This document shows positions 11-8,886 of a stretch of DNA of 57,322 nt, piece after piece (position 1 is the first letter of the stretch; each line of letters begins with the position of its first letter). Under the pieces are notes generated by a model that saw only the letters and a list, made by a program, of their open reading frames with translations, made no database searches and was not told the origin of the DNA. This DNA is from Rickettsiales bacterium (GTDB lineage: Bacteria > Pseudomonadota > Alphaproteobacteria > Methylaequorales > Methylaequoraceae), in assembly GCA_002691145.1 (NCBI GenBank), contig NZHE01000023.1, positions 201,965-259,286 on the forward strand, written 5' to 3'. A program made the translations under genes and the position numbers.

Positions 11-971
11 TCACGATTCATTACCCAAAAAGTATTTTTGTTCAAATTTTTTGTAAACAAAATTAATTTCCTCAATAAAAGACTTTAGAAATTCATGCAA
101 TCCAATTTCTGATATCTTATTTGCATTTAAGTTTTTAAGACGTTTATAAACCTTATCTATTTTTTTTTTTTGAAATAGATGTTTGTTTATAAAAATTAGA
201 TAATCTATTTAAATGATGATATATTTTTTCAACTGAAAATATTAATGATCTGGGACAGGTCATGTTAAGAATTAAAAAATCTATAATCTTTATGTATGTT
301 ATATCTTGTCCTCCGTATGCCCACTTAAATGCTCTAAATGAAGAAATTGATCTTAACATTAGGCTCCATTGAAAATTGTCAATTTCTCCTCCGACATAAT
401 TTATACTTGGAAGTAAGATAAAATATTTTACGTTTACTATTCTAGCTGTAAAATCTGCTCTCTCAAAATAAGTTCCTAATATTAAAAAATCGTATCCATC
501 GTTTATTAATTGAGTGTTGAGTATGGTTCCTCTTATTAAGTTGACTTGCTTTTTTATCCATTCAATGATTTCAGGTAATTCTTTCAAAATATTTTTCGTA
601 TTCTTTATATTATTATCCATATCGTGAAAGGATGAATTAACTGCATTCCATACCTCTAATGTAACGGCAGTTCTAACCATTCTAATGTTTTCTCTAGCAG
701 AGGTTATACAGTTCCTTACCGATGACGAATTTTCCGGATCAAAAAGTAAAAAAGAAATTATTTTTTCTTTTGAAATTTTATTAAACTTGTTTAAGTATTC
801 ATCTTTGATGCCAGAAGTTTCTAAAATTGATTCCCATTCATTATTGTATCCAGTTTCAGTATTAGGAATTAAAGATATTCTGTATCCAACTTCTAAAAGT
901 CTTGCCAAAGAGTCAGCTCTTTCAATGTATCTAGCTGACCAAAATAGATTTTCTGCAGTTTTACTAAGCAT
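11..971 (-). CDS. Alpha-E domain protein (DUF403/COG2307), one-base frameshift
   Basis: The N-terminus carries the family signature ENLFWSARYIERAD. Read directly, the frame stops at 153 after 272 residues, just past a run of 12 T (160-171; 12 A on the coding strand). Removing one A restores a frame that runs to a TGA at 11-13 and gives about 319 residues, close to the usual family size of about 310. The restored tail contains ISEIGLHEFL, typical of alpha-E C-termini. Alpha-E proteins are helical partners of circularly permuted ATP-grasp enzymes in predicted peptide-ligation systems; their reaction is not established. It starts 6 bp after the ATP-grasp gene, so the two are surely cotranscribed. 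The break may be a sequence error, a true lesion, or one rescued by slippage. Confidence 0.88.
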
Positions 972-977
972 GATTAA

Positions 978-2384
978 TCACTCGTTTAATACCCATGTAT
1001 CCTTAACTCCTCCACCTTGTGATGAGTTTACAATTAATGAACCCTCTTTAAGAGCTACCCTGGTAAGACCTCCACTTACTAATTTTGTCTTATTAGCACC
1101 AACTAGACAAAACGGCCTCAAATCAACATGTCTTGGCGATAATTTTTTTTTGTCAAATATTGGAACTGATGATAGTTTAATGATGGGTTGAGCAATATAG
1201 TTCTCAGGACTTGATAAAATTTTATTTCTAAAAATTTCTATTTCCTTTTTAGTAGATTTACTTCCAATCATTAAACCATATCCTCCCGAACTGTGAACTT
1301 CTTTGACAACTAATTTTTTTAGATTATTTAAAACATATTTTTTTTCATCATTTTTATAACATCTCCAAGTTTTAACATTTTCTAAAACTGCCTCTTCACC
1401 AAGATAAAATTTTATAATTTCAGGTAAGTATGTATAAATTGCCTTATCATCAGCAATTCCAGAACCAGGCGCAGAGCAAATATTTACATTTCCAGACTTA
1501 TAAGAATCAAATAAACCAGGGATACCAATTAACGAAGAACTATCAAAAGAAATGGGATCAATAAATTTATCATCAATTCTTCTGTAGATGATATCTACTC
1601 TTTCTGGTCCTCTGGTAGTTTTCATATATGTAATTAATTGATCAACAAATAAATCTGTACCTTGAACAAGTTCTACTCCCATAAGGTCAGCAAGAAAACT
1701 GTGTTCATAATAAGCACTATTAAAAGAACCTGGGGTAAGAATTACAACTTTTGGATCTTTATTACACTTCTGAGGAGCGAGACTCTTGAGCACATCTAAT
1801 AAATAATTTGGATAGTTTTCTACAGTCTCAATTTTTAATTTTTCAAATAATTCAGGAAACATACGCATCATTATTTCCCTGTTTTCAATCATATATGATA
1901 CGCCGGATGGAGTTCGACAATTATCTTCAAGAACCTTAAAAGTTTTTTCGTCGACTCTTATTATATCGGAACCAATTATAGGACTGTAAATTCTTTTTGG
2001 AACTTTGAATCCAACCATCTTGATTTCGTATGCTGGATTTTTATATATTAAATTTTCAGGTATTATTTTTGCTTTAATAATTTCGCCTGAATTATAGATA
2101 TCATTTAAAAAAGCATTTATTGCTAAAGCTCTTTGTGTAACTCCTTTTTTAATTTTTTTCCATTCAATACTAGAAATTATTCTTGGAAACATATCGAATG
2201 GTATTAGCCTTTCAGTGGAATCAAAGTTATTATAAACTGAAAATGTAATACCAATTTTTTTAAAAAGATTCTCTGCTTCATTTTTTTTTTTTACAATTAC
2301 ATTCTCGGGTAAGGATTTTGCCCAATCATAAATTTTACAATAAAAATTCCTTACTTTAGCGTTTCTATAAATTTCATTATACAT
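978..2384 (-). CDS. Circularly permuted ATP-grasp protein (DUF404/DUF407, COG2308)
   Basis: This 468-residue protein has the length and layout of the circularly permuted ATP-grasp family. Recognisable blocks are IERPD-like segments near the middle (GPERVDIIYRRIDD), VLEDNCRTPSGVSYM, VILTPGSFNSAYYEH and KEVHSSGGYGLMIG. Family members are predicted ATP-dependent amide-bond-forming ligases that work with alpha-E proteins and often with a transglutaminase-like protein and the Anbu proteasome; those could lie beyond the left edge. The substrate is unknown. The ATG at 2384 directly follows an in-frame TAA and has no clear Shine-Dalgarno site. About 45 bases upstream sits the glutamine-riboswitch-like element, so expression is probably tied to glutamine level. 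Confidence 0.9.
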   Translation of the reverse strand: MYNEIYRNAKVRNFYCKIYDWAKSLPENVIVKKKNEAENLFKKIGITFSVYNNFDSTERLIPFDMFPRIISSIEWKKIKKGVTQRALAINAFLNDIYNSGEIIKAKIIPENLIYKNPAYEIKMVGFKVPKRIYSPIIGSDIIRVDEKTFKVLEDNCRTPSGVSYMIENREIMMRMFPELFEKLKIETVENYPNYLLDVLKSLAPQKCNKDPKVVILTPGSFNSAYYEHSFLADLMGVELVQGTDLFVDQLITYMKTTRGPERVDIIYRRIDDKFIDPISFDSSSLIGIPGLFDSYKSGNVNICSAPGSGIADDKAIYTYLPEIIKFYLGEEAVLENVKTWRCYKNDEKKYVLNNLKKLVVKEVHSSGGYGLMIGSKSTKKEIEIFRNKILSSPENYIAQPIIKLSSVPIFDKKKLSPRHVDLRPFCLVGANKTKLVSGGLTRVALKEGSLIVNSSQGGGVKDTWVLNE

Positions 2385-2430
2385 TTAATTTATTTTATAT
2401 ACTTCAATAGGAGAAGCAGGAGGACAGATG

Positions 2431-2480
2431 GATGCGTTCCTTCGGTGTCATACCTACTTCCGACCTAAAAGGTTGAACGT
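2431..2480 (-). promoter_or_regulatory. Glutamine-I riboswitch aptamer (glnA RNA motif)
   Basis: Read on the minus strand, the segment holds the conserved blocks of the glnA glutamine aptamer in order: CGTTCA (2474-2479), a short hairpin ACC-TTTT-AGGT, CGGAAGTAGG (2453-2462), a short variable loop, and CCGAAGGAACGC (2434-2445). CGTTC pairs with GAACG to form P1. It lies about 45 bases ahead of the ATP-grasp start codon, in the 5' leader of that gene. In addition, downstream CCTGCTTCT (2412-2420) can pair over 9 bp, with two wobbles, with the aptamer's own GGAAGTAGG; upstream ACCTAAA can pair with TTTAGGT of P2. These are candidate alternative structures for switching. The motif match is seen; ligand and function are known for the family; regulation here is inferred. 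Confidence 0.87.
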
Positions 2481-2602
2481 TTAATTTAGGTTATAACTAA
2501 TATTTTTTTAAATCAAGATATTTTCTCAAGTGATATACAAAAAACATATAATTTTTGATATTTAATTTAAGTTTAAAGCATTTATTATGAAATTTAAATA
2601 AT

Positions 2603-3257: not shown

Positions 3258-3911
3258 TTAATTTAGGTTAATTTGGTAAATATGTGAATTATCAATTAAA
3301 AAGTATTCTTTGTTTTGTTTAAAAATTTTTTTAAAAATATCACTTTCTACATTAAGCCCGCCTGTAAATACACCAAAAGCAGGCATACAAATTTTTGTAC
3401 TTGATACAATAAAACATTTTTTAAATATTCTTTTTCCATTTAATTTAAGAAGTATTTTAGGATGAAAGTGTCCAAAAACTTGGTGTGAATTTAAATTGCT
3501 TGGTTTGTGTGAGAAATTTATTCCATCAATTGTGATGTCTTCATATGTTTTGATATTTGGTATATTTATATCCTGATCATGATTTCCAACAACGAATAAT
3601 AAATTGTACTTATTGTTTATCTTATTAAAAATTAGCTTAGCTCTCCTATCTAATCGATCGTATCCATCATTATCATGAAATACGTCACCTAATAAAATAA
3701 CCGTTTTTACTTTGTGCTGTTTTAAAATTTCATCTAAAAGATTAAGCGTTTCAATGCTATCATAAGGTGGTAGGAATTGCCCAAATTTTGCAAAGTATGA
3801 TGACTTCTCTAAATGTAAATCAGAAACGACTAGTACAAAATTTTTTGGCCAATATAAAATTCCTTGCTCAACTAAAAAAAAGGTATTTTTGTTAAAAACT
3901 ATTTTTTTCAA
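3258..3911 (-). CDS. pdeM: Ligase-associated DNA damage response endonuclease PdeM
   Basis: The 217-residue protein is a calcineurin-like metallophosphoesterase with the expected metal motifs: SDLHLEK near residue 30, GDVFHDNDG, VGNHDQD and GHFHPK. Proteins of this type that sit beside a Lhr-like helicase, an SNM1-like exonuclease and an ATP-dependent ligase form a four-gene DNA damage response set, and all four are present here. The start is a TTG at 3911 whose bases overlap the TGA of the helicase gene by 4, which points to translational coupling. It is predicted to cut or trim DNA ends with the neighbouring enzymes. Confidence 0.88.
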   Translation of the reverse strand: MKKIVFNKNTFFLVEQGILYWPKNFVLVVSDLHLEKSSYFAKFGQFLPPYDSIETLNLLDEILKQHKVKTVILLGDVFHDNDGYDRLDRRAKLIFNKINNKYNLLFVVGNHDQDINIPNIKTYEDITIDGINFSHKPSNLNSHQVFGHFHPKILLKLNGKRIFKKCFIVSSTKICMPAFGVFTGGLNVESDIFKKIFKQNKEYFLIDNSHIYQINLN

Positions 3912-6313
3912 CTTATTCCGACCTCATTTAATAAATCATTTTCAAAGGTTTTAAGATAATATTCGTCAACAATTCTATGGTCAAAAACTTCGTTATTTAT
4001 TTGTAGCATGAGAGGAATAGATAGGGGTGATGGTTTTTTTAATTTTTTAAGTTTGATTTTAGAGGAAATTTTCTTCAAATATATTTCAAGTCTATTTAAT
4101 TCAATTAAATCCTTTTTTGATTCTTCAATTGTAGCTTCGATCAAGATATGTTTTTTTTCATATTTGTTAAGAACCTTTAAAATAAGTTCAGAATTTATTG
4201 ACATTTGGTTCAATCTTTTAGGTTGATTCGGAAAACCTTTATTTATTAAACCAGAAATTATTGCTACTTTATTAAAGTTTCTTTTGTAAAGAGAAGAATT
4301 TTCTAGCCACTTATTAATACTATTTTTGAATGAATTTAATTCAAATAATAAATCAAGATTTTCAATTTCTTTGTCTACCCAAATAGCCAACACATAATCT
4401 GTGCATACAAATCCTAAGGGTTTTATTCCTAATTTCCTTATTCTGTTAGATAAGACAAAACCAAGTGTATTATTTACATTATACCCTTGAAACGTATAAA
4501 AAAGATAATAATACTGCTTTATTTTTTTTTCCTTATAAGGAAAAAATTCTATTAGAAGTTCGTTGCTTGTTGGAAGTTTCGACCTTTTTTTTTGTAATTT
4601 TAACCATTCAATAATTAGTTTTGGGAATGTCTGCCATTCCTTTTCGTTATTAATTATATTTATTACCTTATCGGCAAGCTTTGTTGAAATTGGCATTTTA
4701 CCACCAGCATAAGACGGAATTTTCGGTCTTTTGTCTTTAATTTTTTCGACCTTAACAATATTCATATTTATTGAATTAAATTTTAAAACTTCACCTCCGA
4801 ATATAAATGTATCTCCTGATTCTAACTTTTGAACAAACCATTCTTCGATTTTTCCCAACTTTTTATTTCTAAGTTTAACTTCTAGCATTTGTCCTTCGAT
4901 TATTGTACCAACATTCATTTTATATTGTCTGATAAACTTTTCAGAACTAATTACGTAATTGCCATTTTTAGTTTTCTTTAATTTTTTAAATTGATCATAT
5001 TTTTCAAGTGAGTAACCTCCATTTTCTAGAAAACTTATAATTTTTTGTATTTTTTCTTTTTTATACTTCCTGTAAGGCCAAGTACTTAAAATTTCATCAT
5101 ACAACTTATTTATATTTATTTCAGATGAACATGCTATACCGATTATATGTTGAGCAAGTACATCCATTGAACCGTATGTAGTTGAGATTTCTTCAATTTC
5201 ATTTTTTTTAATCGCTGTTATTGCTGCTTTGCACTCAAGGAACTCAAATCTATTAGTTGGTACTAGATAGGCAACTGAATTTGATTTTAGGTTATGATTA
5301 CTCCTTCCAATTCTTTGAAGAAGTCTGGTTATACCTTTAGGTGCACCGATCTGTATAACAACTTTTATGTTAGACCAGTCAATTCCTAGTTCCAAGGAAC
5401 TTGTTGCTATCACACAATCTAGTTCATTATTTATCATTTTACTCTCGACATTCATTCTTATTTTTTTTTCTAAACTGCCGTGATGTAAAGCAATTTTAAG
5501 ATTTTCTGAATTAAAGGCCCAAAGACTCTGAAATAATAGCTCAGCTTGAGCCCTCGTATTGACGTATATAATTGAAACATTTTTTTTAATGATTTTATAA
5601 ATGTCCTTGATAGCAAAAGTAGCATTATGTCCTGACCAAGGAATATTTAGATGCTCTCCTAATATTTTGATTACAGGTTGTTTCTTAATATTTGATTTGA
5701 TTATTTTAATATTTTCTGAACAGAAATATTTCTTTGAGTCTATATTTTCTGAAATAGTAGCAGAAAGTAAGATTTTTTGATTAATGTTAAAATTATTTAG
5801 TCTAGTTAAATTTAATGTTAACAATTCTCCTCTTTTTGTATTTATTAGTGAGTGAATTTCATCTATTATAACAAATTTTAAATTTCGAAAAAAATTATTT
5901 GAGTTTTTTTCAGACATCAAAATTGCGAATGATTCGATTGTGGTCATCAAGATGTTTGGAGGATTCAAAAGTTGCTTTTTTTTTTTTTCAAAGCTTGTAT
6001 CTCCGGTTCGTGAAGCGATTGAAATATTTAAACTTATGTCCTTTATTGTATCAATTATATTTTTTTCAATGTTGTAAGTAAGCGATTTAAGAGGAGAAAT
6101 ATATAGGGTATGAAGGATATTAAGATTCAGGGATTTATTAGATAAATCAATTATTGACGGGAAAAAAGCTGACAGGGTTTTACCTGTTCCAGTTGGAGAA
6201 ATTAATAAAACATTACTTCCTTTTGATATATCATGAATTATTTTCTTTTGATGTTCATAAAGGTTCCAGTTTTTTTTTTTTAACCAATTTGATATAATTT
6301 TATTTTCTACCAT
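3908..6313 (-). CDS. Ligase-associated DEXH-box helicase (Lhr-like)
   Basis: An 801-residue superfamily 2 helicase, of normal length for the ligase-associated branch. Visible motifs are SPTGTGKT (Walker A, about residue 40), DEIHSL (Walker B), SATIS (motif III), then in the second RecA domain ATSSLELGIDW and LLQRIGRSNH (motif VI). A long C-terminal domain follows, as in bacterial Lhr. The predicted role is ATP-driven DNA unwinding in repair. It is first in an operon with pdeM. Its ATG is only 9 bp from the start of the divergent exonuclease gene. Two long A tracts (12 at 6270-6281, 13 at 5976-5988) occur in the coding strand and are in frame. Confidence 0.92.
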   Translation of the reverse strand: MVENKIISNWLKKKNWNLYEHQKKIIHDISKGSNVLLISPTGTGKTLSAFFPSIIDLSNKSLNLNILHTLYISPLKSLTYNIEKNIIDTIKDISLNISIASRTGDTSFEKKKKQLLNPPNILMTTIESFAILMSEKNSNNFFRNLKFVIIDEIHSLINTKRGELLTLNLTRLNNFNINQKILLSATISENIDSKKYFCSENIKIIKSNIKKQPVIKILGEHLNIPWSGHNATFAIKDIYKIIKKNVSIIYVNTRAQAELLFQSLWAFNSENLKIALHHGSLEKKIRMNVESKMINNELDCVIATSSLELGIDWSNIKVVIQIGAPKGITRLLQRIGRSNHNLKSNSVAYLVPTNRFEFLECKAAITAIKKNEIEEISTTYGSMDVLAQHIIGIACSSEININKLYDEILSTWPYRKYKKEKIQKIISFLENGGYSLEKYDQFKKLKKTKNGNYVISSEKFIRQYKMNVGTIIEGQMLEVKLRNKKLGKIEEWFVQKLESGDTFIFGGEVLKFNSINMNIVKVEKIKDKRPKIPSYAGGKMPISTKLADKVINIINNEKEWQTFPKLIIEWLKLQKKRSKLPTSNELLIEFFPYKEKKIKQYYYLFYTFQGYNVNNTLGFVLSNRIRKLGIKPLGFVCTDYVLAIWVDKEIENLDLLFELNSFKNSINKWLENSSLYKRNFNKVAIISGLINKGFPNQPKRLNQMSINSELILKVLNKYEKKHILIEATIEESKKDLIELNRLEIYLKKISSKIKLKKLKKPSPLSIPLMLQINNEVFDHRIVDEYYLKTFENDLLNEVGIS

Positions 6314-6322
6314 ATTAAATTT

Positions 6323-7303
6323 ATGAATTTACTTAATAATAAACTTAATATAATACCTTTAAATATATTTATCGACCCTCAATATCCTGTAGACAAAGCG
6401 ATAATCACTCATGCACATGCAGATCATGCTGTTCCTGGACATAGAAAAGTATTAGCTACAAGACAAACCGTTGAAATCATGAAATTAAGATTTGGTGAAG
6501 GTTGTGCCAAGGAATTTCAAATTTTAGAATATGGAAAAAAAATAAACATAAACAATGTTTTTATTTCACTTCTCCCATCTGGTCACATACTTGGAAGTGC
6601 TCAAGTACTAATTGAAAATAAAAATGAAAAAATAGTAGTCACGGGAGATTATAAAACTGTGAAAGATCCCACAGTTTATAATTTTGAACTTCAAAAATGT
6701 GATACAATTGTATCTGAAGCCACATTTGGACTTCCTATATTTAAACATCCAAATCCAAATGAAGAAATCTATAAACTTCTTGAATCTCTAAAAAAAAATA
6801 AAAATACAACTCATTTAATTGGTGCTTACGCACTTGGTAAAGCACAAAGAATTATTAAATTACTTAGAAATAACGGATTTGACCAAAAAATTTTTATTCA
6901 TCGATCATTAGAAAAAATTTGCAATTATTATCAACATGAAGGGATACAACTAGGAAAATTTGAAGTAATTACTAAAAATAGTGAAGAGACTGATTATAAA
7001 ATTGTTTTTTGCCCACCTTCAGCATTAAAGGATAGATGGTCAAGAAGGTTTGAAGACAAAATTATTTCTCAAGCCTCAGGATGGATGAGAATTAAACAAA
7101 GAGTAAAACAAAGTTTAATAGAGTTACCATTAATTATCTCAGATCACTCAGATTGGCGCGAACTAACTAATACAATCAAAGCATCTAATGCTGAAAATGT
7201 TTGGGTAACTCACGGAAGGGAGGATGCTTTAGTTCATTGGTCGATACAGAATGGATTAAATTCTAAACCTTTATCTTTTCAAAGAGAAGAGGAAGATACC
7301 TAG
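6323..7303 (+). CDS. Ligase-associated SNM1-like exonuclease (metallo-beta-lactamase fold)
   Basis: The 326-residue protein has the metallo-beta-lactamase core: IDPQYPVDKAIITHAHADHAVPGH with the HxHxDH metal motif at about residues 30-35, LPSGHILGSAQV, VVTGDYK, and a late ISDHSDW and THGRE. This matches the ligase-associated exonuclease of the four-gene damage response set, related to SNM1/Artemis nucleases. It is divergent from the helicase gene, with only 9 bp between start codons, and is followed after 2 bp by the ligase gene. There is no room for a normal leader, so translation may be leaderless or the promoter lies in the neighbour. Confidence 0.9.
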   Translation: MNLLNNKLNIIPLNIFIDPQYPVDKAIITHAHADHAVPGHRKVLATRQTVEIMKLRFGEGCAKEFQILEYGKKININNVFISLLPSGHILGSAQVLIENKNEKIVVTGDYKTVKDPTVYNFELQKCDTIVSEATFGLPIFKHPNPNEEIYKLLESLKKNKNTTHLIGAYALGKAQRIIKLLRNNGFDQKIFIHRSLEKICNYYQHEGIQLGKFEVITKNSEETDYKIVFCPPSALKDRWSRRFEDKIISQASGWMRIKQRVKQSLIELPLIISDHSDWRELTNTIKASNAENVWVTHGREDALVHWSIQNGLNSKPLSFQREEEDT

Positions 7304-7305
7304 GT

Positions 7306-8886
7306 ATGAAAAAGTTTTCTAAGTTACTTGAAGAAATTATACTAACTCCATCAAGAAATAAAAAGATAGATGTTATGGTAGATTATTTAAAAACAACAAG
7401 TGATCCGAGCAGAGGGTTTACTTTAGCTTTAATCTCTTCAAATCTAAAATTCAACACTATTAAAACAAACGAATTAAAAGACATTATTAAATCAAGAATA
7501 GATCCAGTTTTATTCGATTTGTCTTATGATTACGTGGGTGATTTGGCAGAAACAATTTCTTTGATTTGGCCAACTGAAAAAAAAGGAAAAACTCCAAAAT
7601 TAAATTTTTTTGTAGAATTTCTATCTAATACAAATAAAAATAAAATTAAAGACTTTTTGACTTCTCAGCTTGACATTGCTTCACCGACTGAAAGATGGGC
7701 GATCATAAAATTATTTACAGGAGGGTATAGGATTGGTCTGTCTGAAAAAATTATGAAAATCGCTCTTGCCAAATATGGTGCAAAAGAATTAGAAGAAATA
7801 GAGAATATTTGGCATGGACTAAAAATCCCATATTTTGAACTATTTAATTGGCTGGATGGCAAAGGAACAAAGCCAAAAATTGATCATCTAAAGACCTTTC
7901 ATCCATTAATGTTATCTCATCCAATAAATGAAATTACCGATTTTAAAAAACTTGTTGCAAATGACTTTGCCGCTGAATGGAAATGGGACGGGATAAGAGT
8001 TCAAATAATTATTTCAGGAAATAATACCACAATTTTCTCTAGAAACGGTGAAAATATTACTCAATCGTTCCCTGATTTAAAATCAAAATCAAATTGTGAG
8101 GTTGTACTTGATGGAGAACTTTTAGTTGGAAAAAATTTCGAACCATCATCATTCAGTGATTTACAAAAAAGACTAAATAGAAAAAAAGTTAATAAAAAGC
8201 ATCTCATAGAGTATCCAGCCTTTATTAGATTATATGATATTTTATTTTTAAATTCCATTGACCTTAGGAAACTACAGTTCAAAGAAAGAAGAAAAAAACT
8301 TGAAGAGTGGCACTCTCAAAATTTCCAAGAAAGTCTAGATTTATCCGAGCAAATACTTTTTAAAAATTGGCCAGATTTAAAAAGGCAAAGAGAAGTAAAC
8401 CTCTCAAAGTCTGATATTTATGAGGGTATAATGCTGAAAAGAAAGGATAGTTTTTACTATAATGGTAGACCAAAGGGCATGTGGTTTAAATGGAAAAGAA
8501 ATCCAAAATATATTGATACAATTTTAATGTACGCTCAAAGAGGACACGGGAAAAGAAGTTCATTTTATTCAGACTTTACTTTTGGGATTTGGGATAATGA
8601 AAATAGACTTGTACCTATTGGCAAAGCATATTCTGGATTTTCAAATCAAGAATTAAATAAAATAGATAAGTTTGTAAGAAGTAATACAATTCAAAAATTT
8701 GGACCAGTAAGAGAGGTCAAGAAAAAAATAGTCTTTGAGGTTGCTTTTGACTCAATATCAAAAAGTCCAAGACATAAGTCAGGTATATCATTAAGATTTC
8801 CGAGAATTTCAAAAATTAGATGGGATAAGTCAATAAATGAAATCGATAAGTTAGCTATGATAAAATCGTTTTACAAGCTCGATTAG
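7306..8886 (+). CDS. ATP-dependent DNA ligase (cisplatin-response type)
   Basis: A 526-residue ATP-dependent DNA ligase. The adenylation motif is WKWDGIR, with the nucleotide-accepting lysine at Lys226; SRNGENIT, GELLVG and EGIMLKR follow as later nucleotidyltransferase motifs, and GMWFKWKR is motif V. An N-terminal helical DNA-binding region (about residues 1-200) precedes it and an OB-fold closes the protein. It is the ligase of the four-gene damage-response group and lies 2 bp behind the exonuclease. Replication normally uses the NAD-dependent LigA, which is not in this window, so this enzyme is likely a dedicated repair ligase. Confidence 0.93.
   Translation: MKKFSKLLEEIILTPSRNKKIDVMVDYLKTTSDPSRGFTLALISSNLKFNTIKTNELKDIIKSRIDPVLFDLSYDYVGDLAETISLIWPTEKKGKTPKLNFFVEFLSNTNKNKIKDFLTSQLDIASPTERWAIIKLFTGGYRIGLSEKIMKIALAKYGAKELEEIENIWHGLKIPYFELFNWLDGKGTKPKIDHLKTFHPLMLSHPINEITDFKKLVANDFAAEWKWDGIRVQIIISGNNTTIFSRNGENITQSFPDLKSKSNCEVVLDGELLVGKNFEPSSFSDLQKRLNRKKVNKKHLIEYPAFIRLYDILFLNSIDLRKLQFKERRKKLEEWHSQNFQESLDLSEQILFKNWPDLKRQREVNLSKSDIYEGIMLKRKDSFYYNGRPKGMWFKWKRNPKYIDTILMYAQRGHGKRSSFYSDFTFGIWDNENRLVPIGKAYSGFSNQELNKIDKFVRSNTIQKFGPVREVKKKIVFEVAFDSISKSPRHKSGISLRFPRISKIRWDKSINEIDKLAMIKSFYKLD

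Follow-up and report, generated by a model that had tools for sequence, protein, structure and literature searches.

A glutamine-I aptamer in the leader of an ATP-grasp/Alpha-E/transglutaminase operon of marine alphaproteobacteria as a probable translational OFF switch

Glutamine-I (glnA) RNAs have been described in cyanobacteria and marine metagenomes, where they stand ahead of nitrogen genes (Weinberg 2010, PMC2864571), and a 2018 review considered the class restricted to cyanobacteria, with glutamine synthetase (GS), PII and ammonium transporter (amt) cases in uncultured strains (PMC6316151). Phage-borne copies of the glutamine riboswitch are also known (PMC9004378). Operons that combine ATP-grasp, Alpha-E and transglutaminase-like genes have in turn been linked with nitrogen supply. 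In P. putida, nitrate as compared with ammonium raised PP_2688, a circularly permuted (CP) ATP-grasp protein of type 2, by about 4 log2 units, and nitrogen depletion induced its promoter 3.7-fold (PMC8050072). Transglutaminase-like cluster genes of B. cenocepacia were reported to be NtrC- and sigma54-dependent (PMC5491218), and the domains of this operon cluster with urea metabolism in marine metagenomes (PMC3597751). The ATP-grasp homolog of Yersinia liberates phosphate from ATP, and the roles proposed for the operon are unconfirmed (PMC6376114). An ATP-grasp gene from a Bradyrhizobium RpoN paper was set aside as support, being not identifiable as a member of this family.

In the window, the whole stretch of 57,322 nucleotides analysed here, an Rfam scan revealed a match to the glutamine-I model RF01739 at 2481-2431 on the minus strand, which covers the full model (1-53 of 53) and lies within the region 2385-2500 where an earlier note had proposed a glutamine-I riboswitch. 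The class claim of that note was borne out by the covariance model, as the score of 59.3 bits (E 1.3e-10) exceeds the gathering threshold of 35 bits, and all three conserved blocks that it had named are present in the window leader. Glutamine-II (RF01704) was ruled out (12.7 bits versus a threshold of 33), as was a chance match, given that about 1e-9 random occurrences of the 24 fixed core letters would be expected in the window. The aptamer is composed of helix P1 (2479-2475 with 2439-2435), helix P2 (about 2473-2463) and helix P3 (2454-2452 with 2446-2444), all on the minus strand, with CGGAAGUA and GAAG as its conserved core. The junction A, CGGAAGUA and GAAG are identical to those of the crystallised glutamine aptamer (reference sequence: PMC5393176), from which the window copy differs by paired changes only, namely G-C to C-G in P1 and A-U to G-C at the E-loop/P3 boundary. 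Its identity as a glutamine-I aptamer is practically certain, and judging from these letters L-glutamine is very likely the ligand that it binds.

The aptamer occupies the 5' leader directly ahead of an operon of the nitrogen-linked type (PMC8050072, PMC5491218), at 46 nt from the ATP-grasp gene. This first gene (978-2384, minus strand) encodes a circularly permuted ATP-grasp protein of 468 aa (PF14403 CP_ATPgrasp_2, E 1e-152), whose nearest solved structure is 3n6x (E 8e-164). It is followed by the gene for an Alpha-E protein of 272 aa (153-971, minus strand; PF04168, E 2e-70) and, just beyond the window, by a transglutaminase-like gene (L116:11979-11170; Transglut_core 7e-22). By Pfam matches and by gene order, this is the known operon type, and the ATP-grasp/Alpha-E operon that had been named as the downstream target is thereby confirmed. 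Anbu was absent as the fourth gene, the gene after the transglutaminase lying on the opposite strand (L116:10187-11143, plus strand). The nitrogen links of the operon type in the literature agree with a glutamine sensor placed on it. The host genome's own glnB-glnA pair, some 9 kb away and oriented like the aptamer, carries no aptamer of its own. Elsewhere in the window (3258-8886), a metallophosphoesterase and an Lhr-type helicase are arranged back to back with a metallo-beta-lactamase-fold protein and an ATP-dependent DNA ligase, a layout that presumably recalls a bacterial DNA-repair cluster.

A putative sigma70-like promoter was recognised at 2490-2516 on the minus strand (TTGATT 2516-2511, 15 nt, TATAAC 2495-2490), ending 10 nt before helix P1. 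By itself the window site falls under the rule of the promoter scanner; of the 23 leaders compared, 21 share an equivalent layout, and the transcript therefore probably starts within a few bases of the aptamer. No transcription terminator was found in the window leader. According to the MFE fold, the spacer contains a candidate anti-aptamer segment (2412-2426, minus strand), in which UGUC (2426-2423) can pair with GACA of the P3 loop (2449-2446) and CCUGCUUCU (2420-2412) with GGAAGUAGG of the core (2461-2453); this complementarity was above that of shuffled spacers (z -3.57, p 0.004). A possible competing local hairpin (2400-2418, minus strand; UGCUUC 2418-2413 with GAAGUA 2405-2400) is located downstream of the aptamer and ahead of the start codon, a little upstream of where a Shine-Dalgarno usually lies. 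It appears in folding once P1 is forced, and it was as well stronger than in shuffled spacers (z -3.10, p 0.014).

The arrangement is conserved in the order to which the window belongs. Our sample of this order comprised 32 genomes from one family and 12 genera, recorded as marine single-cell genomes and metagenome-assembled genomes (MAGs) labelled uncultured Alphaproteobacteria or Rickettsiales. The aptamer was detected in 23 of them, and the same 23 genomes (11 genera) each possess one copy of an ATP-grasp ortholog with 78-92% identity to that of the window; the aptamer lies directly upstream in 23/23. The remaining nine genomes carry neither aptamer nor ortholog; completeness is 54-84% for eight of them and 93% for the ninth, and most of the absences, perhaps not all, thus reflect missing assembly. 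The blocks highlighted in the earlier note are retained ahead of the orthologs, and the unusual combination of alphaproteobacterial host and target operon to which it had drawn attention recurs in independent single-cell genomes and MAGs. In 19 leaders the aptamer core is invariant and the spacer variable, and 11 tested helix pairs are kept in all of them (209/209 cells paired); the P1, P2 and P3 pairs barely vary, which makes covariation inside the aptamer uninformative. The operon alone was found as a chromosomal target in this order. A replacement of NtrC/sigma54 by RNA was not accepted for the window's order as a whole, where RpoN is encoded in 7/8 genomes tested and an NtrC-like protein is kept (529 bits, below the curated 558.6).

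Across the class, surveyed with 385 genomes drawn evenly, the aptamer occurred outside the window's order in one genome only (G190), which contains eight aptamers in the form of four tandem pairs. These pairs precede an ATP-grasp/Alpha-E/transglutaminase operon, glnA and two ammonium transporter genes. In a 100-genome sample of the order of G190, 49 genomes with the aptamer were found, all in one family (f141), and no aptamer was detected in the sister family f30, either in this sample or in three f30 leaders. In f141, aptamers precede 30/30 close ATP-grasp genes (26 by coordinates, four by cmscan), mostly in tandem; one of the cmscan cases shows a single aptamer where the contig begins. Hence, the operon has in this second family a control element in common with nitrogen assimilation, which together with the literature supports the glutamine or nitrogen control of the operon suggested in the earlier note. 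RpoN was found in 0/5 f141 genomes tested, and it is this family alone that a replacement of NtrC/sigma54 by riboswitches would suit. The odds appear even that some streamlined marine alphaproteobacteria run their nitrogen control by RNA, with f141 glutamine riboswitches having taken over glnA, amt and the operon; if so, the ATP-grasp/Alpha-E/transglutaminase operon would be a core part of the nitrogen-starvation response.

Further features were observed in the tandem leaders of f141 (L117:1935-2110; L118:5898-5730, minus strand; L119:1734-1900 and 3774-3940; loci L145-L176). AUAGCUAAGCAUG, located downstream of aptamer 2, is complementary to the linker CAUGCAAAGUUAU; pairing of the two would enclose aptamer 2 in an extra helix, which can form in 24/24 distinct f141 leaders over the ATP-grasp, glnA and amt genes. 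In the second amt leader (L119:3895-3984), the aptamers are separated from the start codon by a terminator-like hairpin, ACAUAACUA...UAGUUAUGU with U's after it, and some f141 copies may accordingly act on transcription.

Overall the association is rare, as the window's genome was the only one with the aptamer among 399 genomes sampled across the phylum. Thirteen ATP-grasp loci of 66-76% identity lacked it in the Rfam search and 46 Rhodobacteraceae-type ATP-grasp loci in a pattern search; these absences and those in the three f30 loci rule out the aptamer as a general feature of ATP-grasp operons. An aptamer with ATP-grasp was also found in Rhizobiales bacterium TMED25 (L069). On the tree of ATP-grasp proteins, the aptamer-bearing genes need at least three state changes, forced by well-supported branches, which argues that the association was gained or lost more than once. 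The leader spacer of TMED25 (L069:3850-4001) most closely resembles the spacers of L052 and L053, and its ATP-grasp protein is sister to that of L068, which is without aptamer, a hint of separate histories for leader and gene. Furthermore, a glutamine aptamer of 66 bits was observed in genome G008 (contig C1; L120:3312-1361, minus strand) ahead of a Gcw_chp outer-membrane-type gene and an amt gene; as G008 is about 5% contaminated, this contig is possibly foreign.

The switch itself was approached by comparison of 21 leaders with spacers of 38-50 nt, for which dinucleotide-shuffled spacers in 11 groups served as control. Complementarity between spacer and core went beyond the shuffles with a mean z of -1.63 over the 11 groups, and the spacer's own hairpin, the 3' arm of which lies near the start codon in most leaders, with a mean z of -1.26; the values are weak in several genera, and the combined z of -5.4 (spacer-core) and -4.2 (spacer hairpin) are not probabilities because the groups share ancestry. 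Both pairings use common bases and are thus mutually exclusive. In two leaders (L020 and L054), 3 nt only separate P1 from the start codon, and the sole Shine-Dalgarno, AAGGA, is consequently part of the aptamer. Forcing P1 in the energy model changed the accessibility of the start region little or in both directions, with no drop in the window leader, and owing to this mixed outcome the model is not counted as support for the sign of the switch.

We propose that the leader is a glutamine-I riboswitch that would tie expression of the ATP-grasp/Alpha-E/transglutaminase operon to cellular L-glutamine. When glutamine is scarce, the pyrimidine-rich spacer would pair with the aptamer core, the start region would be free and the operon would be made. 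When glutamine is plentiful, the aptamer would fold and release the spacer for pairing close to the start codon; where the spacer is 3 nt long, as in L020 and L054, folding of the aptamer would occlude the Shine-Dalgarno directly. We assign a probability of about 0.7 to this reading, a glutamine-I OFF switch on the operon that acts mainly on translation. It is favoured by the Shine-Dalgarno lying within the aptamer of L020 and L054, by spacer pairings in excess of the shuffles, by the lack of a terminator hit in the window leader, by the nitrogen-limitation response of such operons (PMC8050072, PMC5491218) and by the glnA/amt regulon, repression by glutamine being the sense expected for glnA and amt. 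The weak z values in several genera and the position of the local hairpin in the window leader speak against it. The OFF sign taken separately is likely, and the translational mode is probable to a somewhat lesser degree. We regard a response of the operon to nitrogen status as very probable.

The same riboswitch could instead raise operon expression upon glutamine binding, as happens in cyanobacteria with gifB and the type 2 glutamine riboswitch. Both tested cyanobacterial cases turn ON with glutamine, which speaks against the OFF reading (PMC6316151), and the energy model gives no clear sign. However, the targets in cyanobacteria are inhibitors of glutamine synthetase, or proteins likely to be related to these inhibitors. 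In f141, by contrast, the element stands before glnA and amt, for which an activation by glutamine would be surprising. Elsewhere, nitrogen starvation induces operons of this type (PMC8050072, PMC5491218), and an ON switch is also hard to reconcile with L020 and L054, in which ligand binding would bury the only Shine-Dalgarno. We consider activation by glutamine unlikely and retain the OFF switch as the preferred reading.

Other riboswitch classes include variants of altered specificity, and a real aptamer for another ligand related to glutamine might be envisaged by analogy; the core letters identical to those of the crystallised aptamer and the presence of the same RNA family on glnA and amt make this very improbable. 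The least probable explanation is that of a relic or contaminant without regulatory role. The draft genome shows 3.6% contamination, and its three other aptamer-bearing contigs are phage-like, which accounts for the other three copies, but the window copy is situated on a contig of 388 kb and belongs to an arrangement shared by independent single-cell genomes and MAGs, which rules out contamination as its source. An invariant core beside a variable spacer in the 19 leaders argues in the same direction, and this explanation is largely refuted by conservation. The three phage-like contigs (L002, L003 and L004; G000 contigs C2, C10 and C26) are near-identical and bear a glutamine aptamer of 50 bits ahead of a 77-aa ORF, for which no match was found in a phage collection; a tail-type protein nearby aligns across 40% of its length, at about 46% identity, with proteins from large Pseudomonas and Agrobacterium phages.

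The evidence bears on when the operon is expressed, not on what it makes, and the roles in nitrogen storage, glutamine-dependent ligation or glutamyl-peptide metabolism suggested in the earlier note do not follow from it. The ATP-grasp/Alpha-E system is widespread, and a dedicated glutamine sensor, which glnA and amt have in common with it and which is kept in separate lineages, would tell the condition of its expression and narrow what to assay. A riboswitch class described as cyanobacterial now extends to chromosomes of marine alphaproteobacteria, represented here by draft genomes from environmental samples, and this may help to explain which uncultured strains gave the glnA RNAs of marine metagenomes. 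A literature search, with most subscription journals and key specialist papers outside its scope, revealed no link of the class to ATP-grasp/Alpha-E genes or to alphaproteobacterial chromosomes. Relative to the literature searched, the novelty lies in the target operon and in alphaproteobacterial chromosomes as hosts, the RNA class being a known one.

Compared with the cyanobacterial glutamine-I RNAs (glnA, type 1, RF01739), the window element shares the aptamer by model and core, the position in the 5' leader and the nitrogen-linked regulation. The cyanobacterial cases precede gifB/DUF4278, GS, PII and amt genes and are accompanied by environmental sequences (PMC6316151, PMC2864571), whereas here the aptamer resides on an alphaproteobacterial chromosome, ahead of an ATP-grasp/Alpha-E operon and with a probable OFF sign. 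The glutamine riboswitches of the phages Melnitz, Mosig and S-CREM1 are likewise marine and outside cyanobacterial genomes (PMC9004378; PMC9964418). The Melnitz copy adjoins a tmRNA gene (PMC9004378); in contrast to the phage copies, that of the window belongs to a bacterial chromosome and is conserved across an order. The operon has the same first three genes, gene order and link to nitrogen limitation as the ATP-grasp/Alpha-E/transglutaminase/Anbu operon (Iyer 2009; Y. bercovieri, P. putida PP_2685-2688), from which it differs in that no Anbu gene follows. Its control appears to rely on a riboswitch and a sigma70-like promoter, whereas that in B. cenocepacia is reported to depend on NtrC and sigma54 (PMC5491218).
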